Position numbers and translations under genes: made by a program
Virus record (IMG/VR): IMGVR_UViG_3300042261_001553
Span: 1-37,471 of that record
Source: a virus
DNA: 37,471 nt
Reading direction: 5' to 3' (one strand)
Shown here: positions 403-34,648 of the stretch, in pieces
How positions within the stretch are numbered: position 1 is the stretch's first letter
Layout of the letters: every line of letters starts with the position of its first letter
Notes under the pieces: generated by a model
The model's database searches: none
What the model was told of the DNA's origin: nothing
The model's input: the letters and a program-made list of their open reading frames with translations, nothing else

Positions 403-414
403 TTGGTGGAGACG

Positions 415-3400
415 ATGAGTTCGTCTCTCGCGTTTGATGCGAATCTGAGAGTAGAGAACTACCGTAAATCTGTCGCGTTCGTTGACGAGAACGTGTTGAT
501 GTTCAAGGGATTTCTCGGACCTTCGCTGAAAGAAAAACCCGAAGTCGCTTCGGTGGGCGCTAGAGCCGCCCGCGCTGCTGGTGTGATAGTTGACAGTCTT
601 GGCAAACTTCGTTGCCCGCCAGGGACACCGAACGCCAATCAGTTCACTGACCTACAGATGTCCAACTGCATGGTTCCCGGTATGGGAACTGCGAAAAAAA
701 TGAAAGACAGACTCGCTAATTCGGTTGGAACATTGTTGAAATTCGCAGACAAAGCAATGGACAAAAAAGGCGTCAAGGGAGCCGCTCGTGTTGCGACCAT
801 GGCTGCCCTCGTTGGTTTGGACGTTCTTGACTACAACCACAACGACGGCAGTGGCGCAATGTCGGCAACGATTCTGGCTATGAACGACATAGTTCGTTCG
901 GCTGGACGGGAAATAGCGGAAAGAGCGTTGGACAGATTACAACGCAACGGAAAAATTACTCAAGAACAGCGCGAGCAACTTGACAAAGTTGTTGACAAAC
1001 TTGCGCCAATCGCCGCTGAAAGGCTTGTTCTGGGTGGCATTCAGTCGGTCAACGCTTGGAGACGAGGCAGACAACTACGAAGAAAGACTCCACAACTTGA
1101 AACGAACCCGCATGCTGCGTTTGATGTGCCCTCGGCGAAGAGGGGTGATGTCGTGATGGCTTCAACCGTGGAGGAAGGATTGCAGGCGATTCTAGAAGGT
1201 CGAATAGTGGAGATGCCCGATGTTGCTGGTGCGCATACTCTCGTAGAAGAATTAGGGAAAATGGCTCTTGACGCTGAAGCAAGGGGCGAAAAACTGACAT
1301 ACGACCTTTGCAAAGTCACTGTAGCAAATACCAACGTGTTCTGCGCAGGGAATCTTGGTATAGAAAGAGACTTGATGCCCCAAGCGAAAGGTGATGCGGT
1401 TCCCGGCTCTAGGGCTGAACAGGTTCTGAAAGAACAAAACGCTGCTCGTGTTGCTGCTGGAAAACCAGAAACGAAAGAAGTAGATGGGACAGAAGATTTC
1501 CTGAAAAGGATTAATGAAAAGGGAATTGCCGTTTCTGAGCCAACAAGAGTGCCAGCAAGCAAACTCAAGGCTACTCAACGGAATATGAAAGGTGAGACTG
1601 TCGGCGGAATGATGAAAAATGAGTCGTATGACCCATCCAAGGAACCAATATTTGTTTCTCGCGATGGATATGTGGTTGACGGACATCACCGCTGGGCGGC
1701 AACGCTCGGCAGGGATATGAGAGATGGGGTACTTGGGGACGACACAATGAATGTCATCATCATTGATGCTCCGATTTCGGAAATTTTGCAGATTGCAAAT
1801 GAGTGGACTGATGATTTTGGCATCAAGAGAAAAGGCGTTCCAGGAACAAGCCCGAAACCACAAACGGTAGAAACGCCAAAACCAGCACAACCAACGCTGA
1901 AAACACCGAGACATCTTGCTGAACCGAACGCGATGAATTCAGTTGATTTGTCTCAAGTATTACCTAGCGCACCAGAAAAATCTATGCGCACCGAGAACAA
2001 TATGCCCATCACTGTTGATGCGGAAAGATTCAACGCGGAACTCGCACAAAAAGTATCGTCCCTGTTGGAAAAACACGGAATAGACAAATCCCTGCCGCCA
2101 AGTCAGCAGTTGGATGCACTAGCCAGAAAGATGGGAGTTTCGCTTCGTCGCCCGATGCCAGAACAATTGGACGATTCAATCGAATACCTGCTCGGCGAAG
2201 GCAAGACGGTCGCAGAGGGTTTTGTTCAAGGGATAAACAATCCAGACCCATTGGCTGTGCAAGTGCTCAGGGTCAAAGGGCAAAGCATCCTTGATGCAAT
2301 CAAGTTGGCGGAGTCAGGTCCTGAAGGAAGAGCACAAGTGAGGGAAGCAATCGCTCAGGGCTACTTGGAGGCGATAACCGGCGTGGAAATGATGTTCACG
2401 GATAATCCCGCCATGAGGGGTGCGCTCATACTTGATTTGCACGGAGGTGAATACGCCAAGAAATTCCCAGCAATGAAAGAGGCGGCTGGATATGCGTACC
2501 AAACCTACACTCCGAATGGGATGATGACTCAGGTCAATTTCCTGCCTCATTCACTGATGTTTGACCAAGATGCAATCCAAGGAATTGTTCCAAAAGGTCA
2601 AGGGCTGAATCACAGCGTAAGATTTTCTGGTGCAGACGACCATCAAATAGGTTTGGGTATACACGAAGCGGCGCACGCGGAGCACTTCTACCATCAATAC
2701 GCAGCGTTGGGCATAAAAATCGGGCAAAACTCAGGAACGATAGAACAACAGGTAAGAGCAAAAGGACCGCGACTTGAAGATTCGTATATCGGGGTTATGT
2801 TCGCCCACAGATACGAATTCTCGCCAGAAATGACATGGGACAAAGTGGTGGAACAGTTGGATAAGGCGGGTAGCAATGAGTCGCTTGATTCGTTGATGGC
2901 TGTTGTCGCCCAAGATGCGACGAGAACCAACATGAAGACTGGCACTCCTGCGGATGATGTGAGAACGGGATACCTGCACACTTTGTTCGGAGGTAAAGAA
3001 GGCAAAGAATCTGGCAAGCGAAGCGTTGATGTGATTGAGGCAGTTGAGAATTACCAAAGAGCACAAATGTTCCCGAACATTGTTCCGCATCTACCCAAGG
3101 ATGAACAAGGAAACCAAATCCCTCTCCAACGTTTGACTCAGGCGCAACAAGACGAGGTGTACAGAAAAGCGAAGGAAGCCGTGAAACTTGAGTTGCCTGA
3201 AGGTATCGAACTTGTTGACCCGAATACGGGTGAGGTGCTTTCGGATGAAGATGCCGCGAAAGTGGTGAAAGATGCCATGGGTGGACAGTACATTTCAGGG
3301 CTTTCCCAAGAATATAATGGGGTCAGAAACGACTATCTTGGCATCAAAGAATCCACAATTTCTACGAACGGAGTTCCAAACGAAGAAGTGATGGCTGCGC

Positions 3401-3681
3401 TTGGCAACTCTTCTGACTACGGAAAAACGAACATCATGGAAGCAACAGCAGAAGGTAGGGTTGTTGATGTCTACGGACGTAATTTTACGAGTTTCAATAT
3501 GCCTGACGAACAGGTAACGAAAGTACGAGAAATGCTAGGGCGTCTTTTCCCCGAGAATTATGAGGGTAGACCGTCTGGTAAACCACAGTCAGCGGCTGTT
3601 TTGCAGGAAAAAATACAAAAAATTATCTCCCAAATGCCGACCATCAGAAGAAAAGAAGGAAGCGTAGATTCCGTCGTATGA
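415..3681 (+). CDS. large modular virion-associated protein with ParB-like and HEAAH zinc-peptidase motifs
   Basis: 1088 aa from ATG 415, which has GGTGGAG just upstream; a TTG at 403 is in frame but has no ribosome site. Order of parts: a CX17C motif (C67-C85, CPPG...FTD...C) shared with three other large proteins here; a helical region; around residues 415-430 the sequence VVDGHHRWAA, typical of the ParB/sulfiredoxin-like nuclease fold; a Pro-rich linker near 480-510; and a C-terminal half with HEAAH at 750-754 followed by EHFYH. A further NIMEATAEG motif near residue 1010 could supply a third zinc ligand. The HExAHxEHxY pattern recurs in the minus-strand gene at 31921. I infer a packaged or injected protein with peptidase and ParB-like activities. 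The family as a whole is not recognised, and only the motifs are firm. The stop overlaps the next ATG. Confidence 0.85.
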   Translation: MSSSLAFDANLRVENYRKSVAFVDENVLMFKGFLGPSLKEKPEVASVGARAARAAGVIVDSLGKLRCPPGTPNANQFTDLQMSNCMVPGMGTAKKMKDRLANSVGTLLKFADKAMDKKGVKGAARVATMAALVGLDVLDYNHNDGSGAMSATILAMNDIVRSAGREIAERALDRLQRNGKITQEQREQLDKVVDKLAPIAAERLVLGGIQSVNAWRRGRQLRRKTPQLETNPHAAFDVPSAKRGDVVMASTVEEGLQAILEGRIVEMPDVAGAHTLVEELGKMALDAEARGEKLTYDLCKVTVANTNVFCAGNLGIERDLMPQAKGDAVPGSRAEQVLKEQNAARVAAGKPETKEVDGTEDFLKRINEKGIAVSEPTRVPASKLKATQRNMKGETVGGMMKNESYDPSKEPIFVSRDGYVVDGHHRWAATLGRDMRDGVLGDDTMNVIIIDAPISEILQIANEWTDDFGIKRKGVPGTSPKPQTVETPKPAQPTLKTPRHLAEPNAMNSVDLSQVLPSAPEKSMRTENNMPITVDAERFNAELAQKVSSLLEKHGIDKSLPPSQQLDALARKMGVSLRRPMPEQLDDSIEYLLGEGKTVAEGFVQGINNPDPLAVQVLRVKGQSILDAIKLAESGPEGRAQVREAIAQGYLEAITGVEMMFTDNPAMRGALILDLHGGEYAKKFPAMKEAAGYAYQTYTPNGMMTQVNFLPHSLMFDQDAIQGIVPKGQGLNHSVRFSGADDHQIGLGIHEAAHAEHFYHQYAALGIKIGQNSGTIEQQVRAKGPRLEDSYIGVMFAHRYEFSPEMTWDKVVEQLDKAGSNESLDSLMAVVAQDATRTNMKTGTPADDVRTGYLHTLFGGKEGKESGKRSVDVIEAVENYQRAQMFPNIVPHLPKDEQGNQIPLQRLTQAQQDEVYRKAKEAVKLELPEGIELVDPNTGEVLSDEDAAKVVKDAMGGQYISGLSQEYNGVRNDYLGIKESTISTNGVPNEEVMAALGNSSDYGKTNIMEATAEGRVVDVYGRNFTSFNMPDEQVTKVREMLGRLFPENYEGRPSGKPQSAAVLQEKIQKIISQMPTIRRKEGSVDSVV

Positions 3682-3920
3682 AAAAAAATACGAAACAAGA
3701 CGAGATAGTAAGCGTTGAACAGGTTCATTGGATTGGTTACGGCTGGCTTGTCGTATCCCCAAACGGGAAAGAAGAGTGGTATCGGATATATCTGAAGGAC
3801 GAAAAACTAACCGCCGAAGAATGGGATTTTGTGCAAACGGTGAGACCCAAGGTGATGCTTCCCCCGAAGGTCATTAATGACGAAAATATCCAAGAATGGC
3901 GAAAAACAATTAAACAGTAG
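3678..3920 (+). CDS. small hypothetical protein
   Basis: 80 aa, starting in an ATGA overlap with the 1088-aa gene, so translation is probably coupled. The sequence is Trp-rich (five Trp) with a beta-like first half (GYGWLVVSPNGKEEWYRIYL) and a helical second half. I do not recognise a family. It sits between two large Cys-module proteins. Confidence 0.65.
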   Translation: MKKNTKQDEIVSVEQVHWIGYGWLVVSPNGKEEWYRIYLKDEKLTAEEWDFVQTVRPKVMLPPKVINDENIQEWRKTIKQ

Positions 3921-3964: not shown

Positions 3965-4005
3965 CAAATAGCCAGCCAGTGTGGCTTATCACGGCGAGGG
4001 TACGG

Positions 4006-5349
4006 ATGCAAAACGGTTTAAACTCATCAATTGCGCAACTTCTAAGAAAAAAGGTTCGCCTTTCACGTGGTCACGCAAATATGCGACGAACCGTTCTCCC
4101 CATAGACAGGCAATACCAAATCAATTTTTCAGAAGAAGAGCAAACAAATTCGTTCGACGAATCAAGTCTCTACAACGCACCTCTCAACGGGGATAACAAC
4201 ACCATCAATTTCAAGACGATGATGTACCTCAGAAAATTGGAGTCTCGCCTTTCTTCTCCGATTGACTTTTTAGCATACGACGAAAAAGTTGGTCTAGTCG
4301 GCTCTAGAACGAGATTCGGCAGAGGTTTGCAGGCTGTCGGCTCGGTAATAACACCCGGCAACCTGAGCACTGTCCGAAGTCCAGTGCGTTCCGCTATTTG
4401 GCGGGCACTCACACCAGGCGGAGGCGGTGGGCGAGGGAGGAAACTTCCCGGTGAACGCGGATACAGATGCCCTGCTGGTTTTGAATATGGCGGACGGTTC
4501 ACGGACAGCGCTTTCTCAACCTGTGGCGCACAATTGTTTGAGATACCAGGTCCGCTTGCTTTGGCTGCGCGCGCAATCCGTGGGGCGATGAACCCACCTT
4601 CTGCGCGTTTGGAAAGCCTTTCTGAGGTGATTGAAGGCAACGCGTCTCCTGACCGAGCCGTACAGATTCAGAGAATGGCGCAGATTCCTCGCGAAAATCT
4701 TCCGAATAAACCGCGATTCAATCAGGCGGTGCAGACGGCGGTCACGACATTGAAGGGCGCACCATCTGGTGAGGCAAGAATGATTCGTCGCGACGGCACC
4801 GTTTTCAGACCGATTGTTCCTTCATCGGTATTGCGTCAGTTCAGTGGAAACAAAGACATGATGGACGGAGCGTTCATTCGCGCCGTACAAGTTCCGAAAG
4901 ATATTGCGTCAGATGACGTGGCTCTGCTTGCTGGTGCTTCAATGCAACGTATTTCATTTGTTGCGCCCAATGGTGTTGTAATCTCCATAGAGCGTCCTCG
5001 CCCACTTACTGTTGGAGAACGTCGCAAGTTCGGGCGCCAACTCAACAAAGTAATCGGCGAAACAGACCAATACGAAGTTGGAAAAAACATCAAGGATTTT
5101 GCGGAGCGGAGCAATGGGGCATTCAAGTACACAGAAACCTACGGTTCCGTGAAGAACCCAAATTCACTCGTCACTGTCGTTGGCGATGACGGCGTTGAGA
5201 GACAGGTACGCAGATGGATTTACGAAACCTTCATTCGTGACGGAAGCGAAGCAAAAACACCAAAGCAACAGCAGGCTCAACGTAGACAGATTGCGCAGGA
5301 AGGAAGAGAAGCCGCTGAGCGTCTCGCGCAAAGCACGGTGAAAAGATGA
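4006..5349 (+). CDS. modular phage protein with CX17C motif
   Basis: 447 aa. The ATG at 4006 is preceded by GAGGG at 3996-4000 with a 5-base spacer, which decides this start over the in-frame GTG at 3979. Residues 1-80 are ordinary in composition; a Gly/Arg-rich stretch precedes the CX17C motif (C155-C173, CPAGF..GG.FTD...C) that is shared with the genes at 415, 5346 and 11247. The C-terminal half, about 240-400, looks globular with mixed strands and helices (e.g. RRDGTVFRPIVPSSVLRQF) and matches no family I know. The end is Gln/Arg/Glu-rich and helical. The stop overlaps the next ATG, so it is probably cotranscribed and co-assembled with the giant protein that follows. Confidence 0.8.
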   Translation: MQNGLNSSIAQLLRKKVRLSRGHANMRRTVLPIDRQYQINFSEEEQTNSFDESSLYNAPLNGDNNTINFKTMMYLRKLESRLSSPIDFLAYDEKVGLVGSRTRFGRGLQAVGSVITPGNLSTVRSPVRSAIWRALTPGGGGGRGRKLPGERGYRCPAGFEYGGRFTDSAFSTCGAQLFEIPGPLALAARAIRGAMNPPSARLESLSEVIEGNASPDRAVQIQRMAQIPRENLPNKPRFNQAVQTAVTTLKGAPSGEARMIRRDGTVFRPIVPSSVLRQFSGNKDMMDGAFIRAVQVPKDIASDDVALLAGASMQRISFVAPNGVVISIERPRPLTVGERRKFGRQLNKVIGETDQYEVGKNIKDFAERSNGAFKYTETYGSVKNPNSLVTVVGDDGVERQVRRWIYETFIRDGSEAKTPKQQQAQRRQIAQEGREAAERLAQSTVKR

Positions 5350-8300
5350 AAAAAGTTTTCTTCGTTCGTTTTGAAGGCGGTCGCCCGTACATGCTTGTCA
5401 CTGTCAAGCCGGGCGCGACGACTTTCCAACCGCTTTCAGATGACGCCGATGATGTGTGTGATGTTCTTGAAAGCGTATTTGTGAACAAACCGATAACGAA
5501 AAACCAATTGGATGCTGCGCTTGACGAAGATTTTTCCATTGAAGGTCCGACGGTCGTAACTCGTGAAACCAACAAAATAATCAAAGAGTTCATGTCTGCA
5601 TCTGAGGCGCCGAGAGGGAAACAGATTGACATTTCTGCAATCAAAATCAAAGATTTAGGTGAGTCAAACTCGCAAAACCTTCTAAACATGAAGGCTCGTG
5701 CGTTCATCTATGAACAAACAAAAACCACTTTCAACTATGAGGTTAAGCGTGTCCGCGCAATCTGGGACCCGAGTCTTTCCATTCCTGGTGGACGCCGAGG
5801 CGGTTGGAGATGTCCAACTGGTACTCGTTACGGCGGTCAAATCACCGACAGATTCGGACGCAACTGCGGTTGGGGTGTTGCAAGAAGAATTGCGAACGCC
5901 ATCACCAATATCGGTGAACGGCTTGAAAGTCTTGATGACCGACGACGCGGAAGACGAGTTGATAGGCGCAATCAGCGCGTTGAGAGACGCCTACGCAGAG
6001 ATGCTCGCGGTGGCGCAGCCGAAAGAGGACTGCGAGGCATTGCCGAAGCCCTAGACCCAGGTGCATCCACACCGACCGCCCCAACACCGCGCGCACCAGA
6101 GGCACCTCGCGCACCAAAAAAACCGCGCGGTCGCAGACGAGTATTTGACAGCGATGCACGCGACAGAGGTTTGCGTGATTCAGAGCGACGAAGAGTGCGC
6201 AGGGAATTGGACGAACCGGATGCTGCGCGAACTGGCGAAATTGACCTTGATGACACGGTTGAACTTCCTGCAGGTGAGAGCGCTCCCGACAGTCGCTCGT
6301 TTAGGAACGTCAACAATAGATTCCCCAAGAACGGTCTCCCCGAGGAGGCGTATTGGCGTAGGGACAGTTATACGGGTGACGACAAGGCTGAACTTGAACG
6401 CCGTTTCGGTAGGTACTACGACGACAAAAACAAGATTAATCAGCGAGGAAAGTTCGTCAATGAGCGTCTCGATGATTTCCGTAAGCGTCAAGCGGCTCCA
6501 AGGAAGAAGCCTGAGCCTCGCAAGAAGCCTCGCGGTAAGCGTAAGCCGAGCGAACGCCCGAAGGGTGTCGTGGAAGGTCCGCTGGATGGCGAGTCGTTCA
6601 ACGATTATGCGGACAGAAAGTATGACGAGTACAGGAAGCGTGTTGAGCAGATTCGGCGTGATGGCGGGAATGCTGGATTGTTGACGAAAAAAGAATGGTT
6701 TGAAATCAATCAGGGTAATCTTCGTGAGGCGTGGGATAAAAAGAACCCTGAGAAGAAGAAGCCTGCGCCACGAAAGAAGCCAGTACCCCGTGTCAAGCCG
6801 CCTGTTGCAGACAAAGAACCGACACCAAACAGGCGTGAAGACAAACCTCTAACCATAAATCCAGGAGAAAAAGAAGCAAAAGACCTGTATCCAGAGGGCT
6901 GGTTCAAAGACATAGCGGATGAAAATGAACGAGAGCGCCTTAAAAAAGATTTTGTTGAAGCCTTCATCAACGAAGGTCAGAACATTACAGAAGTCCTTGG
7001 CGACGGACACAGATATGGGGAAGGTACGCCTGGACGAGAACTGCTCGCGGATTGGCAAGCCGACCCAGATGGAGAGATAGCAGGAAGAGCCAAGTACATC
7101 CAAGGTCAAATTGATGCTTTGTCTAAAGAAGAGAAAAAACTTTTGGAACAAGTCGCACAACTTAGACGCAAGGATGTCGATTCACTCGGCGATATCGGTC
7201 GAAGAGCGCTTGCACGCAAAGCAGGAAGACACGCGAGACTCATGCACGAGCGACAAAGACTGCAAGACATATTAGACCTTGGAGTTGATGCCGACCTCCG
7301 TAACCGTAAAGGAAGAGGCGCAGAAAAACCTGCAAGCAAGAAGCCTCGCAGAATCAGCAAGAAAGACGTTTTTGACAACAGCATACAAGCGGTGTCGTAT
7401 GACGGCGCAGCACAACGAATTGACGAACTTCCAGATGATTGGGCGGGTGCTGGTAATGCAGAAGAACTTAGAGACAACCTGCGCAAAGTCGCAGCACGTC
7501 TCGCCAAATACGACAAAGATGACCGCGTTGAACTAGAAGACGGAAATGAAATTCGTGTAGAGGATTTGGCGAAGAATGTGCTTGACGCCGCTGATGCGTG
7601 GGATAGATTCGCAAAGCGCGAAAGAGAGTTTGACGAAGATGAGAGGGCGCGACGCGAAGAAATAGCCGACATTTTGGAAAATGACCGCGCCGTAAACAGA
7701 CCAGGAAAACCCGAAGATAACGAAAACACAGTTGAAGAACTAATTCGTCAAGAAGACGAGATTGAGCGAAGGCTTTTGCGTGATGGTCTTGCTGAATTTG
7801 GTGCCGACGCCAAAGATTGGACAGAGGCACATGACGGCATGATGAAACAACTCGGTTTGCTAAACGATGAAGTCGAGCAAATTGATGACGAGAGATTCAG
7901 AGACATGTGGGAAGCCGAAGATGCGGAGTTAAGGGACTTGTTTGAAAAAGAGATGGCGCAGTTGGAAATGGGCAACATGGACGAAGCGGAACTTGAAGAG
8001 CGAATAAACCTCCGAGATGAACAAATTAAAGCCGCGCTTGAACAACTAGAAAAAGATTTGGCACGAGTTAAAGAGTTGCGAAAGCCCAAAAATCAAGAAG
8101 AACAACTTGAACGAAGGAGAGCGTTCGGGCGCATCGCAGCGGGCGAACGAATAGTGAATCTCAACCGTCAGTTCAACAGAGAAAACAGAGAAATTCTCAA
8201 CAATTTGCGCGGCGGAGACAATGCGCGCGCAGGCGCGACACCTTCCTTTGGTAGTGGAAGCGCACCAGACGACAGGTCATTCAGAAATGTCAACAACTTC

Positions 8301-10898
8301 TTCCCGAAGGGTCTACCAGACAGACCGTTCTGGCGAGATGAAAAGTATGACAAACCGAACAAGGCGAGCCTAGAAAAACGATTTGGTCGTTACTACGACG
8401 AAGAAAACAATTTGACACAAAGAGGGAAGTACGTCAACGACAAGTTGAAGAAGATGCGTGAAGAAGGCAAAATTCCACCAGTTAATCGCCGACGCGCAAA
8501 ACGACCGCCGAACTCTGATATCAAACGAGTAGTCAAGTTTGAGGAAATCGATAAAAACGAAGGCATCAGTGTCGGTGACGCAATAGCCCACATCGGATTT
8601 AGAGACGATGACAACAGGGTTCTTGACGAACTTGCTGCCCATTTTGAAATTGGTGCAAGAGACACCGACCTGCAAAGAATTGAAGGTCTACCTCGACTCA
8701 ATATGGCTGATGTTGGAGAAGCCGTTCGTGAGCGGATTGAGCGAAACAAGAAAGAACGATGGAACCCGCAAGAAAGGGCAAACCTAGAACGCGAACTAGC
8801 CAACCTGCCAGATGAACTCATGGACGCTAAACGAGTGGATGCAGAAAACGCCGTCAAACAAGCAGAAGATAAAGTTCGGACAGCCCTAGAGGATTTAGCG
8901 CAAATTAGGAGACGCATAAAAGAACGCAAGGGTTCGCTCAAGAGACTCAAAAAAGACGATAAACAAGACTTGCGTAGGGAGGCTGACCGTCTCATAGTTT
9001 GGAACGCAATTCTTCTTGAAAAGCGTGCCCGTTTGAAGATGATACAAGATGATTATGAAAAACGTGTAGGAAATGCGCGTGGTGGAGGGAGCGACCGCCG
9101 AGATTTTGACGCCGTTCTTGATGACATCAAGAAAATGGTTCCCGCCAATCAACCGAACCGACCTCTCCCCAAAGAACTTGTAGACAGATTGTTCGACGAT
9201 TTTCAGAAGCAGCGCAATAGAGAAGGTGGCGACAGACTAAGAAAATTGCTAGACGACGGAATTTGGGATGACGACAAATTAAAACAACAACTTGAAGCGA
9301 GGGAAACCGTTCTTGACGGACTTCAACGCGGCAGAAATGCAATCCGACAACAATTGGACGATTACGTTAACAGGCTTGGCGCCGATGAACGCGACAACGA
9401 CTTCGTTGATTTGGTGAGAAAAGCAGTTGAAAACGAAGCACTAATAAAAGGGATGGAGAGTGAAATAAGCCTAATTAAGGCGCGACAAAATGAACTCAAC
9501 AACAGAGTGGGAGCAAGGTATCAAAAGTTTGTGGATGAAGGAGTGTTGCTTGATTTTGACGGCACCGATGAACCAGGCATGGAAATGATTTTAGACCAAG
9601 TTAGAAAAAAAATAATTGATGCAAAGTTGAATAATTTTGAAGATTTTGATGGGGGTTCCGTATACCTATTGCCAACAGGTCAGGTTGTTTTCCTTGACCC
9701 CACTCAGAGAGTGGCGTTGAGAGACATGGAAAGACAAAATGTCATAACGAACAAGGCAAGGAAGTTGGCAATCATACCGGCGGAAAAAGCGCCCGAAAGA
9801 CCAAGAACAGGTGGACCAAAACCGGAGAAAGCGTTGCCGACAGAAGCGCGAGGACCAGTCGGGCACGCCTTCCCGCGCAGAAAAAACCAAATGGGAGAGT
9901 TCGGCATTAATTTCCAAGAAAAAGGAATAGGCGAATACAAACCAGTGGTCAATAGAGAAATAAAAAACCTTGAAGATGCCATTAATTGGGTTCGTGACGG
10001 AAAACCGCTAGACCAAGTTCCTCACCAATATTGGAGGGAAGCAGTTTCAGCGAACGCCAGCAAAAGCAAGAGAGACAAAAATAAGCGTTTTAAGTCAGTC
10101 GCAAAGAACGGCGGCAATATCGGCGACACGGAGATATATGTTTTGCGAGACTCCGACGGATTCGCAACCAATCACGGATTGGTATTCAAGTCGTCTAGAG
10201 CAGGAGACAATATCGGTGAGATAGTTGGCTGGAACTATTTAGACAGGTTGGGAATCATTGAAGGTGGAGCGGTTTACGACGGACCCGGAAATGACGGCGC
10301 GTATGTGATGTTCCACTTCGCTTTCAAGGACATTCCAGAAGGCAACGCAATAGGTAAAGCCGACGGGGGCGACAACTTTGTCTACGCTCAACGCAAGGCA
10401 GACGAACTACAAGGATTCCCAGGTCGCGTTCACAACTGGCTAGCGAACTATATTCTCGGAGTCTCGGATAGACACGACGGCAACGGGATGATGAGAGAAG
10501 TTGCCAATGAAGGCGGCAAAAAAGTTGTTGTTATCCCGCTTGACCTTGGATGGGCTGGACGGGGGGTAGAGAATGACCCATTCCAATACCTCAGATTCTT
10601 TGGCATGGACGGAGGGTTGATGACCGACATGGCTACCGCATATCAACGCGCTACTCCAGAGGGGAAACGAAGAATTTTGTACGATTTGGAAAGAGCGTTA
10701 GACAATATCATTACAAAAACTGAAAACATGTTGGATGTCAACAAAGTAGACTTCGTAAAACAGGCAATAAAGAACGTTCCAGACGGCGAAAAAGCCACCG
10801 CCGAGAAAAAAGCGGAAAAATTGTACGACCAAATGAAGAAACAACTACAAAACCTGAAAGATTCAAAACAAGCAATTATTAACAGGGTCAGGAGTTAG
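5346..10898 (+). CDS. giant modular virion-associated protein with C-terminal atypical kinase-like domain
   Basis: 1850 aa; the ATG overlaps the preceding stop. Visible order: an N-terminal module (3-68) shared with the gene at 15758; a block 115-237 nearly identical to residues 9-131 of the gene at 11247, including CX17C (C156-C174); a SERRRVRRE block (about 266-298); a SFRNVNN block (about 313-383); a Lys/Pro/Arg linker; long charged helices (about 520-960) expected to be coiled coil; a second SFRNVNN block (about 973-1041); more helix; and a globular C-terminal domain (about 1510-1790). The last has K1615, E1625, D1708-R-H-D-G-N1713 and D1733-L-G, the pattern of the PI3K/HipA-like atypical kinase fold. 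The position upstream of the capsid gene and the rod-like middle suggest a structural or injected protein. Kinase activity is inferred from motifs only. Confidence 0.85.
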   Translation: MKKVFFVRFEGGRPYMLVTVKPGATTFQPLSDDADDVCDVLESVFVNKPITKNQLDAALDEDFSIEGPTVVTRETNKIIKEFMSASEAPRGKQIDISAIKIKDLGESNSQNLLNMKARAFIYEQTKTTFNYEVKRVRAIWDPSLSIPGGRRGGWRCPTGTRYGGQITDRFGRNCGWGVARRIANAITNIGERLESLDDRRRGRRVDRRNQRVERRLRRDARGGAAERGLRGIAEALDPGASTPTAPTPRAPEAPRAPKKPRGRRRVFDSDARDRGLRDSERRRVRRELDEPDAARTGEIDLDDTVELPAGESAPDSRSFRNVNNRFPKNGLPEEAYWRRDSYTGDDKAELERRFGRYYDDKNKINQRGKFVNERLDDFRKRQAAPRKKPEPRKKPRGKRKPSERPKGVVEGPLDGESFNDYADRKYDEYRKRVEQIRRDGGNAGLLTKKEWFEINQGNLREAWDKKNPEKKKPAPRKKPVPRVKPPVADKEPTPNRREDKPLTINPGEKEAKDLYPEGWFKDIADENERERLKKDFVEAFINEGQNITEVLGDGHRYGEGTPGRELLADWQADPDGEIAGRAKYIQGQIDALSKEEKKLLEQVAQLRRKDVDSLGDIGRRALARKAGRHARLMHERQRLQDILDLGVDADLRNRKGRGAEKPASKKPRRISKKDVFDNSIQAVSYDGAAQRIDELPDDWAGAGNAEELRDNLRKVAARLAKYDKDDRVELEDGNEIRVEDLAKNVLDAADAWDRFAKREREFDEDERARREEIADILENDRAVNRPGKPEDNENTVEELIRQEDEIERRLLRDGLAEFGADAKDWTEAHDGMMKQLGLLNDEVEQIDDERFRDMWEAEDAELRDLFEKEMAQLEMGNMDEAELEERINLRDEQIKAALEQLEKDLARVKELRKPKNQEEQLERRRAFGRIAAGERIVNLNRQFNRENREILNNLRGGDNARAGATPSFGSGSAPDDRSFRNVNNFFPKGLPDRPFWRDEKYDKPNKASLEKRFGRYYDEENNLTQRGKYVNDKLKKMREEGKIPPVNRRRAKRPPNSDIKRVVKFEEIDKNEGISVGDAIAHIGFRDDDNRVLDELAAHFEIGARDTDLQRIEGLPRLNMADVGEAVRERIERNKKERWNPQERANLERELANLPDELMDAKRVDAENAVKQAEDKVRTALEDLAQIRRRIKERKGSLKRLKKDDKQDLRREADRLIVWNAILLEKRARLKMIQDDYEKRVGNARGGGSDRRDFDAVLDDIKKMVPANQPNRPLPKELVDRLFDDFQKQRNREGGDRLRKLLDDGIWDDDKLKQQLEARETVLDGLQRGRNAIRQQLDDYVNRLGADERDNDFVDLVRKAVENEALIKGMESEISLIKARQNELNNRVGARYQKFVDEGVLLDFDGTDEPGMEMILDQVRKKIIDAKLNNFEDFDGGSVYLLPTGQVVFLDPTQRVALRDMERQNVITNKARKLAIIPAEKAPERPRTGGPKPEKALPTEARGPVGHAFPRRKNQMGEFGINFQEKGIGEYKPVVNREIKNLEDAINWVRDGKPLDQVPHQYWREAVSANASKSKRDKNKRFKSVAKNGGNIGDTEIYVLRDSDGFATNHGLVFKSSRAGDNIGEIVGWNYLDRLGIIEGGAVYDGPGNDGAYVMFHFAFKDIPEGNAIGKADGGDNFVYAQRKADELQGFPGRVHNWLANYILGVSDRHDGNGMMREVANEGGKKVVVIPLDLGWAGRGVENDPFQYLRFFGMDGGLMTDMATAYQRATPEGKRRILYDLERALDNIITKTENMLDVNKVDFVKQAIKNVPDGEKATAEKKAEKLYDQMKKQLQNLKDSKQAIINRVRS
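5691..6056 (+). repeat. shared Cys-module block, copy in the 1850-aa gene
   Basis: About 120 codons that are nearly identical in protein to 11271-11641. Landmarks are KRVRA.WDP.LSIPG, the CX17C motif and GVARRIANAITNIGERLES, followed by an Arg-rich tail. DNA identity is also high but third positions differ, so this is an old duplication under protein-level constraint. Confidence 0.9.
6141..6239 (+). repeat. SERRRVRRE block, copy 1
   Basis: Encodes FDSDARDRGLRDSERRRVRR and then an acidic EP..ART segment. A close copy lies at 12771-12866 in the 1392-aa gene. Confidence 0.85.
6282..6494 (+). repeat. SFRNVNN block, copy 1
   Basis: A block of about 70 codons: APDSRSFRNVNNRFP, a WR...Y..D segment, L(E/R)RRFGRYYD, then RGKFVNERLD. 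It recurs at 8262-8469 in the same gene and at 13095-13305 in the 1392-aa gene. Confidence 0.9.
8262..8469 (+). repeat. SFRNVNN block, copy 2
   Basis: Second copy in the same gene: APDDRSFRNVNNFFPK, FWR, LEKRFGRYYDEE, RGKYVNDKL. It follows the long charged helical region. Confidence 0.9.
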
Positions 10899-10903
10899 CG
10901 GCA

Positions 10904-11257
10904 ATGGTTGACTTTGCAAGAATTGTTCTTGACAACGAGTTTTTTTACGAGCCTAAACAAACTCCCGACATGTGCATCGCCAAAAATGATGGAGGGCAAA
11001 TAGTTTTGCACGGCAACACACAGGAAGTTGTTGATTTTGTTTACAAGGTTTTGTCTAACTCTGCAGCCCGTGCAACATATTCCGACCCCAAATATGGTCT
11101 AGAATATGTTCTGTCCAAATTGATAGGTCCTTCAATTGACTACAGTTCCAATCTTTCTTTCATTGAAGAAGACTATGACGAACTGGTTAAAGGGCTAAAA
11201 AATACAAAATCCTTCAAGGTCATAACAACCAAGAAATTTGACGTAGATGACGAATAA
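10904..11257 (+). CDS. hypothetical protein, possible free-standing version of an N-terminal module
   Basis: 117 aa. AGGAG lies 9-10 bases before ATG 10904, and the gene overlaps the next by 11 bases. No known family. In the neighbouring paralogue at 5346, the equivalent Cys-module block is preceded in the same polypeptide by an ~85-residue N-terminal module. Here the 117-aa product stands in that position as a separate gene. Similarity between the two is weak by eye (a helix, a 'GP' turn, another helix), so the equivalence rests mainly on gene order. Confidence 0.7.
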   Translation: MVDFARIVLDNEFFYEPKQTPDMCIAKNDGGQIVLHGNTQEVVDFVYKVLSNSAARATYSDPKYGLEYVLSKLIGPSIDYSSNLSFIEEDYDELVKGLKNTKSFKVITTKKFDVDDE

Positions 11258-14200
11258 AAACCTGTTCAACTACAAGGCGCAACGCTTTCAGAGCGAACTG
11301 AACAAGACGACGTTCGCATACGAAGTTAAGCGTGTCCGCGCTTTGTGGGACCCGACATTGTCAATCCCCGGCACGAACCGTCGTGGCGGTTGGCGTTGTC
11401 CTGTCGGCACCCGTTACGGTGGTCAGATTACTGACCGTTTCGGCAGAAACTGTGGTTGGGGTGTCGCTCGGCGTATCGCCAATGCAATCACGAACATTGG
11501 TGAACGACTTGAGAGCGTTGATGATAGACGAAGGGGCAGGCGTGTAGACAGGCGCAACCGCAGAATGATGGGCAGGTTGCAACGAAATGCCGATGCGGGT
11601 CGTGCAGAAAGAGGTTTGCGTGGTATCGCAGACGTTTTGGACGGCGGAGAAGGGTCATCCAATGTTCCACGGACACCTCGCGGGCGGGATGTAATCCTTG
11701 ATGATGTTGATGTTCCTGAGCGCTCGCCAGAGGTTTTGGACGATGTTGACGCCCCCGAACCATCACCAGTGGTGTTGGATGATGGAGGCAGACCACTAGA
11801 CGGACGAGCCGCAAGGAGAGCGGAAAGAAAACGACGCCGTCAAGAGCGACGTGAGCGACGGGAACGCGAAGCACGGGAGCGCGAAGCGCGCGGTGAACCA
11901 CCTCCCGGACAACTCGGTAGAGGTTGGCGAGGTTTGCTTGACCCCGACGACCCGAGATACAACGAACAGGGTAATCGTCCTTGGTTTGGACCGCCGCAAA
12001 ATGCTCCCCGTGCAGACGCCGATGAAGTCGACGCACCAGGCGGTCGTAGACCAGGTGGCAGACGTAGACCCGATGCACCAGAAGCCGATACCCGCCCGAG
12101 AACGCCGACTGATGAAGATGGTGGGGATGCGCCAGGAATGCCTCCTAGACCTGCACGACCGCGGCGACCAAAACCAGAAGATGGTGGTGCAGGCGATGAT
12201 GATGGTACGCCAGACGCAACGCCAGCCACACCACCTAGGCGACCGCGGCGACCGAGACCACCGCGCGACGAAGAGGCGAGACCGCGACCCGGTGAACGAA
12301 AACCTCCGCGCGTTCCTGCTGCTGAAGGAGGAGCGTTAGACGATTTTATTACACCTGATGGGGCACCAAATAGAGACGGCAACGAACCGAATGAGATTGT
12401 TATCGGTAGAGACGGGAAACCATACAAATGGGTACCGAATCCAGATGCAAACGCTATTGGTAGAGGAAGACAAGAAAAAGGTTCTTGGGTTCCCGCATCC
12501 AACGTTGACTTAGAGAATGACCGCCTATCCAAAAAGCGTCGAAGAGTGCGGGGCGACGATTTTCGCAACCCGAAATCGCCCAAAGGTGCACCCGACCCAG
12601 AGGGCAAGACCCGTATTTGGACGGACGATGAGGGCGACCAATGGGAGTACGACCCGAATCGCAGAGAGTGGGATTTGAGAGGAAACCCAGATAAACGTCG
12701 TGAGGCTGAAGAAAAAGACAGGAAAGAGCGAGGTGGCGCTGCGGGTGCACCACAGCCACCGAACAGACCGCCTTTTGACTCGGATGAACGCGACGCGGGT
12801 TTGCGCGAATCTGAGCGTCGTCGTGTTCGTCGAGAAATAGAGGAACCGGGTGCGCCGAGAACCGAGACAGGAGAGCAACCAGAAGCAGAAGCACCAAAAC
12901 CGAAGCGTCCGCGACGCAAACAAAACCGCAGGCGCGCTGCTTCGGATGAAGTTGCGACAGAGTCGGCAACGAGGCGACCGCCCGCACCAGGAGACAAGCC
13001 TGCTGGCGGTCAAAAGAAACCAAGCGACCGAGTTAATACCGAACAAGAAGTGCTTGAGTTGGAAGACATCATACAGATGCTTGAGGGTGGGAGTGAACCC
13101 GATAGTCGTTCTTTCAGGAACGTCAATAATCGTTTCCCGAAGAGCGGTTTGCCGAAGAGCGCATTTTGGCGAAAACCCGATTATGACGGTGATGATGCCG
13201 AACAGTTAGAAAGACGGTTTAGCCGCTACTACGACGCGGATGGAAACATTAACGCCCGTGGTCGGGTTGTCAACAGGGAAATCGCGCGACGAAAGCGCGA
13301 AGGCGGTCTGACTCCCAAGGGTCGTAAACCGCGCAAACCGAAAGCAGAGAAGAAACCGAAAGGTCCTGTTTCCAACACTCCCGCAGACCAAGCAGACATC
13401 CCGTCGCCCCCACCAATGGCAGCAACAGAAGACATACCCGAATATCAGAGACTCCCAGAGGAATATAAGCAGCAGGCGCGCAAGGTTTATGAAGACGCCC
13501 TCAAGGATGGTGACAGACGAAGAAAAGTACAGGACGACGAAGTGGACAAATTGATTGCCAAACCAGAAGGAACACAGAAACGACTGAAACTAGAACAGGC
13601 ACGCGACGATGCAGAGATGCTGGAAAAGGTGTATAGACAAAGCCGCGAAGAAGCCGAGCAAAACATGCGAAACATGGAGAACGTTCCGTTCAACGAAATG
13701 AGTGAGGGAATGAAACGGACTTACATTGATTATGTTGCCGGAGCGATGCGTTCACGCAAGGAAGAAGAATATGCGCGTCGCCGCCGCATGAGAATAGTGA
13801 ACGCACTCGGAGAGGACGCCCGAAATCAACCACCAGATAGACCGGCTCCGAAACCTCGCGATGTCAGACCACCAAATCGGGCGCCATCGCAACCCTCATC
13901 GTCAACCGCAACGGAAGAGAACAATCCAAAATTCAAAGAACTCCCAGAAGAAGCAAAACAAAAAGCACGTGAATTGTTCCAAACAATCGTGAAGGCTCGC
14001 AATGATAGAAATGACCGCGAAGACATCTTTGTGGATAACGCAATTGGGCGTCCAGCCGGTGCTGAAGCGAATCAAATTCTCAAAGATGTGCTCCGTAGAG
14101 AAAAAGAAGACCTTGACAGAGTATTGGACGAAAAGTACGACGCACGCGACAACATCGCAAAGTTAGAGCGCGACCACGGGTCATACAGCGAAATGTCACC

Positions 14201-15425
14201 GACCCAACAACAAAACTACATAGACAGTGTTGCCGTAATAATGCGCGCAGAAAAAGACGCAGACAGAAGAAAGAAACGAATCTCAAAATTGAAGAGCGCA
14301 ATAAACGAACGGGAGGCAGCGCCAGCGCCCCGTCCAGCAGGTAGACCCGTACCAGAAAATAGGTCAGATGTCCGACCGAGACAACAACCAAACATCGGAC
14401 CTCAAAAAGTGAAAGCAGATAACGATAACAAGTTGGGTCAATATGAAGGTGGTCTGCCCGCAGGGAAAGCGGTTCCGATTGGCAACAAGGGAATCAACAC
14501 CAAAGAAGATGCTGCAACGTTCCTGCGTAACGGTGGCGAAGTAAGAGACGTTCCAGACGATTTTATATTGTTTGCAATGATGAGAAACACAGAAGGTCCG
14601 AATCCGCGATATCGGTTAAGCAGCGTAGGCGGCGGAGGCAATGTAAACGGTGCACTCAGAATGTTTGTGGATGAAGAAAGAGAAAAAATGTTTATCATCA
14701 AATACGCAGATGGTAGAAGTTATGCACAAAATGAGGACATCTACGAGATTCTTGGAAATAATATTGCAGGACGAATGGGTCTGCCAGTATCCGAATTTAG
14801 ATTTGCAGGACCGGTTGTACCAAATAACAAACCGGGCGTCTCTGGTCATATCAGACCAGTTCTATTTGAACATTCAGGCAATCTAGTAGAAGGAACCCTC
14901 CAGGCAGCAAGAATAAACCATGTAGAAAAGATTGAACCAGAAGATGTGATAGCCGCTACCTTGCTTGATTATGCCGTGCTGAACACGGATAGACATGGAG
15001 GAAACTATTTCCTCGTAACACAAAACGGAAAGATGCATTTTGTGCAAATAGACATGTCCCTAGGTTTTCACGCTAGGGAATTTGACCCGGGTGACGACTT
15101 TTCCGGTGACGGTGGTTTTCTGACTTGGCTAAAATCTGGAGCGGGCGGAAGACGAAACGACATGGCGCAAATGCTTCCAGAGAGAGTTAGACAGGGTCGG
15201 GTTACAAGAGCCGAAGTGGTACGCGCAATAATCAAGATTCAAGAAAATTTGCGCGCTGCCGAACAAGCAAAACGATATACGGAATTCGGTCAAGATGTAT
15301 ATAATGCAAGGGGCGAAGTCGCCAAGATTGACCAAGGCGTCAAATACGTAGATGCGCGTCTGAAATATTTGATGGAAGTTGACCCTAACCGTCTTGCCGA
15401 TATAATTCTTGAACGAGCGATTTAG
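11247..15425 (+). CDS. large modular virion-associated protein with C-terminal atypical kinase-like domain
   Basis: 1392 aa, a paralogue of the 1850-aa protein. Residues 9-131 match that protein closely, including CX17C (C51-C69). Then follow an Asp/Pro/Arg-rich, probably disordered region (about 130-500), a SERRRVRRE block (509-540), a SFRNVNN block (617-686), two tandem helical repeats (about 728-853 and 891-1021), and a C-terminal domain (about 1065-1390). The last shows FIIK1152, E1167, NTD1248-R-H-G-G-N1253 and QID1269 followed by LGF, that is Lys, Glu, catalytic Asp, Asn and metal-binding Asp in the order of PI3K/HipA-type kinases. Its Lys and catalytic loop are better preserved than in the paralogue. 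Substrate and activity are unknown; location in the particle is inferred. Confidence 0.85.
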   Translation: MTNKNLFNYKAQRFQSELNKTTFAYEVKRVRALWDPTLSIPGTNRRGGWRCPVGTRYGGQITDRFGRNCGWGVARRIANAITNIGERLESVDDRRRGRRVDRRNRRMMGRLQRNADAGRAERGLRGIADVLDGGEGSSNVPRTPRGRDVILDDVDVPERSPEVLDDVDAPEPSPVVLDDGGRPLDGRAARRAERKRRRQERRERREREAREREARGEPPPGQLGRGWRGLLDPDDPRYNEQGNRPWFGPPQNAPRADADEVDAPGGRRPGGRRRPDAPEADTRPRTPTDEDGGDAPGMPPRPARPRRPKPEDGGAGDDDGTPDATPATPPRRPRRPRPPRDEEARPRPGERKPPRVPAAEGGALDDFITPDGAPNRDGNEPNEIVIGRDGKPYKWVPNPDANAIGRGRQEKGSWVPASNVDLENDRLSKKRRRVRGDDFRNPKSPKGAPDPEGKTRIWTDDEGDQWEYDPNRREWDLRGNPDKRREAEEKDRKERGGAAGAPQPPNRPPFDSDERDAGLRESERRRVRREIEEPGAPRTETGEQPEAEAPKPKRPRRKQNRRRAASDEVATESATRRPPAPGDKPAGGQKKPSDRVNTEQEVLELEDIIQMLEGGSEPDSRSFRNVNNRFPKSGLPKSAFWRKPDYDGDDAEQLERRFSRYYDADGNINARGRVVNREIARRKREGGLTPKGRKPRKPKAEKKPKGPVSNTPADQADIPSPPPMAATEDIPEYQRLPEEYKQQARKVYEDALKDGDRRRKVQDDEVDKLIAKPEGTQKRLKLEQARDDAEMLEKVYRQSREEAEQNMRNMENVPFNEMSEGMKRTYIDYVAGAMRSRKEEEYARRRRMRIVNALGEDARNQPPDRPAPKPRDVRPPNRAPSQPSSSTATEENNPKFKELPEEAKQKARELFQTIVKARNDRNDREDIFVDNAIGRPAGAEANQILKDVLRREKEDLDRVLDEKYDARDNIAKLERDHGSYSEMSPTQQQNYIDSVAVIMRAEKDADRRKKRISKLKSAINEREAAPAPRPAGRPVPENRSDVRPRQQPNIGPQKVKADNDNKLGQYEGGLPAGKAVPIGNKGINTKEDAATFLRNGGEVRDVPDDFILFAMMRNTEGPNPRYRLSSVGGGGNVNGALRMFVDEEREKMFIIKYADGRSYAQNEDIYEILGNNIAGRMGLPVSEFRFAGPVVPNNKPGVSGHIRPVLFEHSGNLVEGTLQAARINHVEKIEPEDVIAATLLDYAVLNTDRHGGNYFLVTQNGKMHFVQIDMSLGFHAREFDPGDDFSGDGGFLTWLKSGAGGRRNDMAQMLPERVRQGRVTRAEVVRAIIKIQENLRAAEQAKRYTEFGQDVYNARGEVAKIDQGVKYVDARLKYLMEVDPNRLADIILERAI
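11271..11641 (+). repeat. shared Cys-module block, copy in the 1392-aa gene
   Basis: Counterpart of 5691-6056; almost residue-for-residue from KTTF.YEVKRVRA to AERGLRGIA. The cysteines are at codons starting 11397 and 11451, the same 18-residue step as in the other three genes. Confidence 0.9.
12771..12866 (+). repeat. SERRRVRRE block, copy 2
   Basis: Encodes FDSDERDAGLRESERRRVRR then an EEPGAPRTE segment; partner of 6141-6239. Confidence 0.85.
13095..13305 (+). repeat. SFRNVNN block, copy 3
   Basis: EPDSRSFRNVNNRFPK, FWRK, LERRFSRYYDADG, RGRVVNREI: the third copy, in the 1392-aa gene. Confidence 0.9.
13428..14310 (+). repeat. tandem helical repeat (two ~125-aa units)
   Basis: Unit 1 is about 13428-13806 and unit 2 about 13917-14310, separated by a Pro-rich linker. 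Shared landmarks are LPEE.KQ.AR, a central charged helix, F.EMS/Y.EMS, the YIDyVA...MR motif and a closing basic helix. The units have diverged but align end to end. Confidence 0.75.
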
Positions 15426-15437
15426 GTAGGTGAACAA

Positions 15438-15749
15438 ATGAAATTCAAAAAGTATTGCATATCAAACCTAAGAAGCATGACCGACCCCAACAAAATTAGC
15501 GAAGATTCACAACCCTCTGTTCATTTGGAATTAGAGGATGGGTCATTCAAAATGTTTGTTGCGGACAAAAACGTTTCTGAATATGAAAACAACATTGTGG
15601 CTGAACTGCAAAAGAGCAGACAATACACATTTGAAGAGTTTAGTTCTTCCAACCCTGCATATTTTGTTGAAGATAGGGGCGTGTATTCCGAAGGAAAAGA
15701 ACAAGAAATAAATAAAATTTTGTCGGATTACGGTTACCCGACCAAGTAG
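15438..15749 (+). CDS. small hypothetical protein
   Basis: 103 aa; AGGTGAAC lies just upstream of ATG 15438, 12 bases after the stop of the 1392-aa gene. Acidic, with a beta-like first half and a C-terminal helix (EQEINKILSDYG). Its general layout resembles the N-terminal module of the 5346 and 15758 products, but identity is low and I do not claim homology. It precedes a large Cys-motif gene in the same way as the 117-aa gene does. Confidence 0.65.
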   Translation: MKFKKYCISNLRSMTDPNKISEDSQPSVHLELEDGSFKMFVADKNVSEYENNIVAELQKSRQYTFEEFSSSNPAYFVEDRGVYSEGKEQEINKILSDYGYPTK

Positions 15750-15757
15750 GGAATAAT

Positions 15758-17095
15758 GTGGCTAGTTCTTTTGTCGTCAGAAAACGCGACGGGTTGCCTT
15801 ATTTCGTAGCAACAGTCAGCAATGGAAAGACATCTTTCCGCGCAGTGTCTTCCGATGCCAAAGAACTGTTGGATGCTTTTAAAGACGAATACTCTGATTC
15901 GGAAATAACGAAACGAGAACTTGAAGTTTCGTTGGACCGTGGAATGACAGTGGACGGTCCGATGCCGGAATCCGCAGTTGCAAACGCATTGAAACGTGAG
16001 ACGAAACCGAGCGAGAAGGCTGACCGCACCGTCAGCAGGGAACAGGCTCTTTCTGTCGCGCGTCTTCTTGGCTGTCGTGGGGCACATCAACATGACAACG
16101 GGTCTTGGATGCCGTGCAAAACGCACGAAGAATTTGAGGCTCTCAAAAAAGGAAAAAACGAGTACTACGAGGTTTCGTCAAAGAGTCGCATGAACGGTTT
16201 TACGGAGATTGAACACCGTGCACAATTGGCTTTGACTAAATCGGGAGAATACTACGAGAGCAGACAAATGGCTGAGGAAGCATCCCGAAAACGGGGATGC
16301 AAGGGTGTTAGAACTATCAACATTGGTGGCATGAAGTACTATGCGCCGTGTGTTGCCACCGAACGATTCGAGAAATTGCGGGAAAGACCGGTAGGGGGCA
16401 TAGAAACTTTGCCTGACGGCGGTTTGGTGTCCGCTAAAACGGAAACCAAAGGGTTTGTTCCGATGGTCAGCAGGTCTACTGACCCTGATACTTTTCCGAA
16501 TCCGGATTCTGCTCGTGTGCGTGCAAGGAACCTCGGTTGCATCGGTATTCGTCGTTATGTCGCAAGGGACGGGAAGACGGTGTGGATGCCGTGTTCCAAC
16601 GGCTCCGACTACAACAGGGTGATGAAATTGAGAAATGACGGAAGCCCGAAGAGGAATCCTCGCGGACGTAAATCGTTGGTTGATTCTTCCTTCTTGCAAC
16701 AGAAAGTCGCACGAAAGCCTCGGCGTAAGGCTCCGCAGATAGACAGCGAAACCGTCAACAGGCTCGCAATGATGGTCAGAAGACACAATGCGGACGTATC
16801 CAAAGAGATACATCGGACGAACCTCAGGGATGTCAAAATCGTTTATTTGCGTGGTTTGGCTTCTGGTGGGGAAACATCAGCCAAGAAACGTTTGTCGGAT
16901 TTCTTGAAGGCTATGAAGTCCGACGAGCCTCTCAAGAGGGGTAGTCGGCGGGATTTTGACTTGGTGCCCGACACACACCCCTCCAAGGATTCTCAGTTCG
17001 CGAAAAAGAACGATGATTTTGATGACGGGGTAATGGGTGTAAAGCATTCAGGTGGATGCTGTCCGAGTGTTGTTAAACGATATCACCGTTTGTAA
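15758..17095 (+). CDS. modular phage protein with three Cys-pair repeats
   Basis: 445 aa from GTG 15758, with TAGGGA upstream. Residues 2-66 align with residues 3-68 of the 1850-aa protein (FVVRKRDGLPYFVATV against FFVRFEGGRPYMLVTV, both reaching a ..DGP/EGP.. turn). Three repeats follow, each CxG....W/Y(M/A)PC and then a helix ending in F/Y..L/M: at 16066-16150, 16291-16383 and 16529-16630. The last quarter is basic and ends in a CCPS motif. Paired cysteines could bind metal or form disulphides. It lies directly upstream of the capsid gene and is likely a virion or assembly protein; its function is unknown. Confidence 0.75.
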   Translation: MASSFVVRKRDGLPYFVATVSNGKTSFRAVSSDAKELLDAFKDEYSDSEITKRELEVSLDRGMTVDGPMPESAVANALKRETKPSEKADRTVSREQALSVARLLGCRGAHQHDNGSWMPCKTHEEFEALKKGKNEYYEVSSKSRMNGFTEIEHRAQLALTKSGEYYESRQMAEEASRKRGCKGVRTINIGGMKYYAPCVATERFEKLRERPVGGIETLPDGGLVSAKTETKGFVPMVSRSTDPDTFPNPDSARVRARNLGCIGIRRYVARDGKTVWMPCSNGSDYNRVMKLRNDGSPKRNPRGRKSLVDSSFLQQKVARKPRRKAPQIDSETVNRLAMMVRRHNADVSKEIHRTNLRDVKIVYLRGLASGGETSAKKRLSDFLKAMKSDEPLKRGSRRDFDLVPDTHPSKDSQFAKKNDDFDDGVMGVKHSGGCCPSVVKRYHRL

Positions 17096-17170: not shown

Positions 17171-17261
17171 CGGTTAACGTAACAGTTGATTGAGGGCTGG
17201 GTGCTCACCTAAGTCAAGAAGTATCAGTACCCAAACAAGCATTTCCGTAGGAGGAAATCTC

Positions 17262-24398: not shown

Positions 24399-24400
24399 TC

Positions 24401-26422: not shown

Positions 26423-26485
26423 ACCCGAAACACTAGTAGAAAGGCGTACCCACCAAATGCAACTATTCTGAGAGACCAAATCTAC

Positions 26486-26497
26486 TACTTTGGAGGT
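26486..26497 (+). promoter_or_regulatory. possible leaderless promoter (TACTTT-N6-ATG)
   Basis: TACTTT (26486-26491) lies six bases before ATG 26498. A GGAGG is present at 26492-26496 but only one base from the ATG, too close to act as a normal ribosome site. No -35 match. Confidence 0.3.
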
Positions 26498-34638: not shown

Positions 34639-34648
34639 AAACGCTTTC

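Follow-up and report, generated by a model that had tools for sequence, protein, structure and literature searches.

Giant kinase-ended proteins with small partner genes in the head operon of an uncultured, probably actinobacterial phage

The window, that is, the complete 37.5-kb virus record IMGVR_UViG_3300042261_001553 of IMG/VR (37,471 nucleotides; abbreviated W in comparisons with its relatives), encodes two giant proteins, designated K1 and K2, in the head operon between the genes for the prohead protease and the major capsid protein (MCP), the portal and protease genes being seen in the close relative G001. With moderate confidence, we regard K1 and K2 as members of an array of polymorphic effectors, each composed of a module, a kinase, and a cognate small gene. 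The two open reading frames (ORFs) were located where a first-pass annotation, made from the sequence alone, had placed them, and their parts are distributed as follows.

5346..10898, plus strand: K1, 1850 aa, 212 kDa, with an N-terminal domain, mod1/cpg, two copies of mod2, a charged middle, and a C-terminal kinase
5346..5615, plus strand: N-terminal domain of K1 (aa 1-90), common to gene F (blastp 31%, E 8e-10; hidden Markov model, HMM)
5667..6095, plus strand: mod1 of K1 (aa 108-250), core cpg motif RCPxGxxxGGQITDRFGRNCG, 74% identity with K2 2-146
6240..6548, plus strand: mod2 of K1, copy 1 (aa 299-401), BLAST within the window
8256..8492, plus strand: mod2 of K1, copy 2 (aa 971-1049), BLAST within the window
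11247..15425, plus strand: K2, 1392 aa, 157 kDa, with mod1/cpg, mod2, a charged middle, and a C-terminal kinase
11250..11684, plus strand: mod1 of K2 (aa 2-146), match to K1 mod1 and cpg core
13053..13358, plus strand: mod2 of K2 (aa 603-704), BLAST within the window

BLAST comparisons within the window matched all three module types that the two proteins had been said to share. The mod1 regions aligned at E 4e-49, the mod2 of K2 matched both copies in K1 at about 50% identity (E 1e-24 for copy 1 and E 1e-17 for copy 2), and the C-terminal domains proved homologous at 25% identity (E 1e-7). The middle parts are highly charged, with 37-50% K, R, D, or E across most of K1, and their net charge is mixed, from -20 to +12 per 100 residues; the description of the long parts as basic is thus not uniformly correct. 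The cpg core, in the general form RCPxGxxxGG(Q/R)(I/F)TD...C, is common to K1, K2, and the products of the upstream genes A and C, and was present in 62 ORFs in 45 loci. Relatives were collected via MCP similarity, which gave 80 loci with related MCPs; the MCP was chosen as the query because scanning IMG/VR directly with the individual kinase domains confirmed no relatives, and the frequencies reported here describe this MCP-gathered set and do not represent all phages. The kinase alignment was too divergent to serve in a genome scan, and a search of species genomes with the K2 N-terminal module found nothing.

The C-terminal domains carry the following features.

9885..10874, plus strand: K1 kinase domain (aa 1514-1843), AlphaFold 2 predicted local distance difference test (pLDDT) 88.3, predicted template modelling score (pTM) 0.88, structural matches
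10188..10190, plus strand: codon of K1 Lys1615, invariant (42/42)
10467..10484, plus strand: K1 catalytic loop DRHDGN, Asp1708 to Asn1713 (Asp 42/42, Asn 42/42)
10542..10544, plus strand: codon of K1 Asp1733, putative metal ligand (42/42)
14427..15404, plus strand: K2 kinase domain (aa 1061-1386), by sequence family, with K1152 at 14700, D1248 at 14988, N1253 at 15003, and D1269 at 15051

Iterated HMM searches begun from K1 or from K2 converged on one set of sequences from 30 loci. Among 28 non-identical domains, the columns K, D, N, and D were each conserved in 28/28 and E in 26/28, and a larger set of 42 domains from related uncultured phages gave 42/42 and 40/42, respectively. The residues picked out by the first-pass annotation (K1615/E1625/D1708/N1713/D1733 and K1152/E1167/D1248/N1253/D1269) coincide with these conserved columns, far beyond chance, and a chance motif was rejected since the five residues are invariant columns of the family. 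A pseudokinase reading of K1 and K2 was likewise rejected, the catalytic residues being intact, and judged by sequence both domains look like working kinases. HMM iteration could in principle recruit unrelated sequence; against this stand the invariant residues, the BLAST match that links K1 directly to K2, and the structural model.

The structure prediction and fold search proposed earlier were run on K1, and K2 was placed by sequence. In VIA alignments, the AlphaFold model matched the CotH kinase with Z 12.9 (root-mean-square deviation 4.2, 247 aligned), PI4K-II with 12.3, CtkA with 11.3, HipA with 10.9, and Vps34 with 10.2, thus within Z 10-13 throughout; rows less than 1 Z unit apart were treated as tied, and therefore no single subfamily is picked. 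Foldseek returned CtkA at 3e-4, a PDB profile search returned PI4KA at 3e-4, and the best viral structural match was A0A6J5MJB0, annotated as a PI3/4-kinase (E 8e-9, template modelling score 0.60). Among the 28 family members, PF00454 matched 19 (best 2.8e-7) and HipA_2 matched 7. Neither K1 (14.2 bits) nor K2 (13.3 bits) reached the curated cut-off of PF00454 PI3_PI4_kinase (27.1 bits); for PF20613 HipA_2 (cut-off 27 bits), K2 scored 21.7 bits (E 1.3e-4) and K1 gave no match. The model with its structural matches, the profile matches, and the invariant catalytic residues bear out the PI3K/PI4K and HipA-like residue order recognized in the first-pass annotation and support a predicted CotH/PI4K-II/CtkA/HipA/PI3K kinase fold for the K1 domain. 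Such a fold could also serve other chemistry, such as AMP transfer or the phosphorylation of small molecules or phosphoinositides, as lipid kinases belong to the superfamily, PF00454 is the commonest weak Pfam match, and PI4K-II is among the top structural matches; we consider this very unlikely, and because the Z-scores of the protein kinases CtkA, HipA, and CotH are comparable to that of PI4K-II, the fold does not favour lipid substrates.

The enzyme ends are exchangeable, and a small gene lies downstream of each of them.

13339..15755, plus strand: exchanged cassette of the K2 C-terminal part and gene E, replaced in the close relative L005 (blastn)
10904..11257, plus strand: gene D, 117 aa, isoelectric point 4.7, small partner of K1, family S3, homologues of which follow K1-clade kinases
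15438..15749, plus strand: gene E, 103 aa, isoelectric point 4.9, small partner of K2 by position; hhalign to family S1 E 2.5e-4, probability 43

Across the loci, the cpg module was joined to a kinase, a GNAT-like domain, ParB/HExxH parts, or the tail of the gene C product with its pseudokinase, and the kinase tree mixes slots. In relatives such as L037 and L079, a GNAT-like domain occurs together with a kinase domain; K1 and K2 each show one recognized catalytic domain. In other relatives, Zeta-toxin domains were fused to giants at or next to the slot, NUDIX and DnaJ domains occurred as well, and Zeta-toxin matches lay inside DUF3721 F-type proteins directly before the MCP in L049, L060, and L078. 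The GNAT assignment of the variable acetyltransferase end is moderately supported because the fold was assigned from structure: the domain model had a pLDDT of 79, acetyltransferases headed both structural lists (Foldseek best E 1.5e-3, VIA Z 8-9.3), and a PDB profile search with this domain gave nothing meaningful.

In two pairs of phages, the C-terminal enzyme and the small downstream gene were replaced as a unit. L077 and L088 are 83% identical in DNA up to position 2494, and co-linear matches return only at 4267, where the next giant has its start codon. W and L005 are co-linear by blastn to position 13338 and again from 15755, beside the start of gene F, with only two matches shorter than 90 nt in between; their K2 proteins share 64-96% identity in blocks of the N-terminal 700 residues and 26-39% in the last 500, while the MCP, C, and F are 83-90% identical. 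Although the contigs come from metagenomes, L005 and L006, which derive from separate ones, agree with each other, and open frames persist through the exchanged regions. These DNA-level exchanges of enzyme plus small gene place the module shuffling proposed earlier on firmer ground than had been claimed. A separate observation concerns the proteins at 367-3057 of L009 and 4627-7317 of L017, in which the N-terminal 500 residues are nearly identical and the kinase part has diverged (78-92% identity; nonsynonymous against synonymous divergence, dN 0.14 and dS 0.18, in one 100-residue block), which hints at fast evolution of the enzyme end.

The small partner genes had been overlooked in the first-pass annotation. 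A small gene of its own accompanies every active giant, and the family of this gene follows the enzyme; the pseudokinase-ended head protein encoded by gene C has none. The next large gene started 145-801 nt downstream, with a small ORF in the gap, for all kinase giants (39/39) and all GNAT-like giants (12/12), and 31 of 34 C genes abutted the next gene (-35 to +29 nt). In each gap, the longest open frame was taken as the small ORF, so that its reality rests on family conservation between genomes, and eight small-gene clusters are single sequences. Family S0 follows GNAT-like ends (12/12), S1 and S3-S11 come after kinases only, and S2 comes after A-slot proteins, one of which (L089) has an internal kinase. 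The W/L005 exchange follows the same rule, with E, a distant S1 relative, in W and S8 in L005, S8 being common to L005 and its nearest kinase, that of L097. The small protein of the nearest kinase was the best match in 21/37 cases and among the top three in 29/37, and the enzyme predicted the small gene with cpg similarity controlled (partial Mantel test, partial rank correlation 0.24, p 3e-4). A Pfam CdiI match of gene E (E 0.089) was dismissed as noise. A conserved N-terminus, an exchangeable C-terminal effector, and a small downstream gene specific to that effector, absent where the fold is catalytically dead, together follow the logic of MuF toxins. With these partner genes, an effector-immunity cassette becomes the likeliest reading; the anatomy is that of a polymorphic effector-immunity system, in which the small genes would act in immunity.

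The genes surrounding K1 and K2 in the head operon are listed below.

403..3681, plus strand: gene A (phrog_2859, 6.6e-20), cpg at aa 61-120, ParB-like region at aa 361-502 (2.7e-4), HExxH at aa 754
3678..3920, plus strand: gene b, 80 aa, small partner of A, homologous to family S2 after A-slot proteins
3979..5349, plus strand: gene C, conserved head-operon protein, cpg at aa 155-219, its stop overlapping the K1 start by 4 nt
15758..17095, plus strand: gene F, three DUF3721 (Cys) repeats (PF12518, 1.4e-21) and a K1-type N-terminal domain, directly before the MCP
17190..18584, plus strand: MCP, HK97 fold (PF05065, 7.5e-43)

The MCP of G001 is 90% identical to that of the window over 440 residues, and the gene order of this relative is a portal-MuF fusion (734 aa), an 840-aa prohead protease S78 protein, a 518-aa gene, A, C, K1, K2, F, and MCP, with small genes placed after A, K1, and K2. 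Gene C was present in 28 loci and, in most relatives, its product ends in a homologue of the kinase domain (hhalign probability 98.7, E 4.7e-16, 266 columns; for example, L056:6522-8570). Because the catalytic-loop Asn and the last Asp are absent from this tail, it was classed as a pseudokinase; the window's own C is without it. The A slot is polymorphic, holding a cpg module with a kinase in some relatives. The ParB-like region of A, about 230 residues, was present in the window (403-3681) and missing from a close relative (L090:1065-3560), with 85% identical flanks, which makes a clean gain or loss of a domain. Records that have kinases hold 1-3 of them, and a GNAT-like domain is a frequent ending of the second slot, so the pairing of kinases noted in the first-pass annotation is not a fixed rule.

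The position between protease and MCP, a common site of scaffold genes, the homologous pseudokinase in most relatives' C, and the resemblance of the charged middle regions to scaffold-type sequence would also suit proteins that are internal to the head or resemble scaffolds and carry kinases acting on capsid or scaffold proteins as the head matures, with D and E as assembly chaperones and the C pseudokinase as the ancestral structural form. However, active kinases are missing from many relatives with closely related MCPs, the slot may hold GNAT-like or other effectors, and enzyme ends are swapped between close relatives with 90% identical MCPs. Absence, replacement, and swapping are unexpected of an essential assembly enzyme, and we judge this explanation rather improbable.

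From the head-operon position and the N-terminal module shared with a conserved head-operon protein, we infer that K1 and K2 are packaged in the virion and act on the host at infection. K1 and K2 consist of a reusable N-terminal part (cpg, with optional N-terminal domain and mod2) followed by a long charged linker and an interchangeable C-terminal enzyme. Under the favoured effector array, the N-terminal modules would place K1 and K2 in or on the procapsid, both proteins would enter the host along with the DNA, and the kinase would phosphorylate host protein, or possibly lipid, targets in favour of infection; D for K1 and E for K2 would bind and silence the enzyme in the producing cell until packaging. 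The enzymes might instead stay behind in the producing cell to block superinfection or defence, the role suggested in PMC8008677 for the Gratiaviridae HipA-family kinase; this precedent, the late-operon position, and small genes that could tune activity in the producing cell are consistent with such late control. It leaves the very large size and the fusion to a module shared across the head operon unexplained, and we hold it to be quite unlikely.

Several points weigh against the effector-immunity reading. The similarity of the cpg module has its own effect on the small gene (partial 0.19, p 0.002), so part of the co-variation of enzyme and partner reflects shared ancestry. The small partners could instead be folding or packaging chaperones, and the pseudokinase in C suggests an additional structural role of the fold in the head. 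Searches of 15 records (8 of them longer than 100 kb; records may be incomplete) revealed neither a tyrosine integrase nor a large serine recombinase domain, so the reason for which lysogens usually keep an immunity gene is not apparent here. Finally, tblastn of K1, K2, C, F, and two other kinases against a collection of 50,697 phage records gave no match, so that no cultured relative of K1, K2, C, or F was found there. A broader form of the effector-array reading, which we advance tentatively, is that virulent actinobacterial phages load their heads with several enzyme effectors on one docking module, that co-encoded inhibitors restrain each of them during assembly, and that the pseudokinase head protein is a structural relative of the active kinases.

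The remaining annotated genes include those relevant to the host.

31052-31441, minus strand: WhiB transcription factor (PF02467, 6.3e-14)
22452-28479: metabolic and DNA genes, namely ribonucleotide reductase, N6/N4 methylase (minus strand), MazG, and a TauD-type dioxygenase

Among isolates, the MCPs nearest to that of the window belong to Brevibacterium and Gordonia phages (48% for Brevibacterium phage Cantare), and an Actinomycetota metagenome-assembled genome holds an MCP 73% identical to it. Because of this kinship and the WhiB gene, the host of this uncultured phage is likely an actinobacterium. Outside the main subject, a tag of the form LGTPIGGVxxxDGDxDGFxTGPGGKDN with an EF-hand-like Asp/Gly loop was found in the proteins at 18689-19516 (plus strand), 31921-34662 (minus strand), and 34649-37471 (minus strand), as well as in relatives' F-type proteins, and may be another shared docking or metal-binding module. 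The large protein at 34649-37471 showed a weak DUF3626 match (7e-5, under the cut-off) and phrog_8314 (6e-7), and its C-terminus appeared ADP-ribosyltransferase-like by eye. The 913-aa protein at 31921-34662, outside the head operon, contains the HExxH motif HEFAH, matches DUF5872 (1.7e-4), and is a possible metallopeptidase effector.

These results point to a large, unstudied phage kinase family in phages probably infecting aquatic actinobacteria and supply effector/partner pairs with directly testable specificity. They also suggest that polymorphic effector-immunity cassettes, described among phages for temperate MuF phages, may be kept as well by phages in which no integrase is detectable. 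If true, a toxin-immunity economy would serve injection by virulent phages and not competition between lysogens. With a pseudokinase present in a conserved head protein, it can be tested where the effector kinases came from.

The first-pass annotation's claim that no comparable phage system had been described was too strong, as precedents exist in polyvalent proteins (PMC5512222), in the Gratiaviridae HipA-family kinase (PMC8008677), and in MuF toxins (PMC5576092). MuF polymorphic toxins, described for temperate phages, resemble K1 and K2 in their head-associated N-terminus, variable C-terminal toxin, and small downstream ORF, which is present mainly with a toxin domain (89.4% of MuF toxin genes; PMC5576092). 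Membership of K1 and K2 in this group was rejected since the MuF domain is absent: PF04233 gave no match at E 1 in K1/K2 or elsewhere in the window record, and in relatives MuF sits apart, in the portal-MuF fusion (the portal gene of G001). Further differences are the several effectors per genome, the lack of an integrase in the 15 records, and C-termini of the PI3K/HipA-type kinase and GNAT-like kinds; the main text of PMC5576092 does not use the word "kinase". The polyvalent proteins known from phages and conjugative elements, for which injection together with DNA has been proposed (PMC5512222), are likewise giant, multidomain, and encoded near virion genes, as K1 and K2 are among them, and contain kinase, GNAT, ParB, peptidase, and Zeta-toxin domains. 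Their kinases, however, are of the Ser/Thr/Tyr type with the C-terminal subdomain lost (PMC5512222), whereas those of K1 and K2 belong to the PI3K/HipA/CotH class and have a helical part at the C-terminus; K1 and K2 also have partner genes, and the phrase "immunity protein" is absent from PMC5512222. The Gratiaviridae kinase lies between portal and MCP, as here, but adjoins an AAA ATPase and a glycosyltransferase in human gut phages, and the portion of PMC8008677 consulted does not describe shared modules, arrays, or small partners. T7 gp0.7, too, is a phage kinase that modifies host proteins, as K1 and K2 would; it is early-made and belongs to an ordinary protein-kinase family (summarized in PMC5512222 and PMC8008677). 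The PI3/4-kinase-like proteins A0A6J5MJB0 and A0A6J5L1V5 of uncultured Caudovirales share the fold of K1 and are known by database annotation only, no study of either having been found in the literature searched. From MuF toxins and polyvalent proteins, K1 and K2 differ in both their N-terminus and their kinase family.

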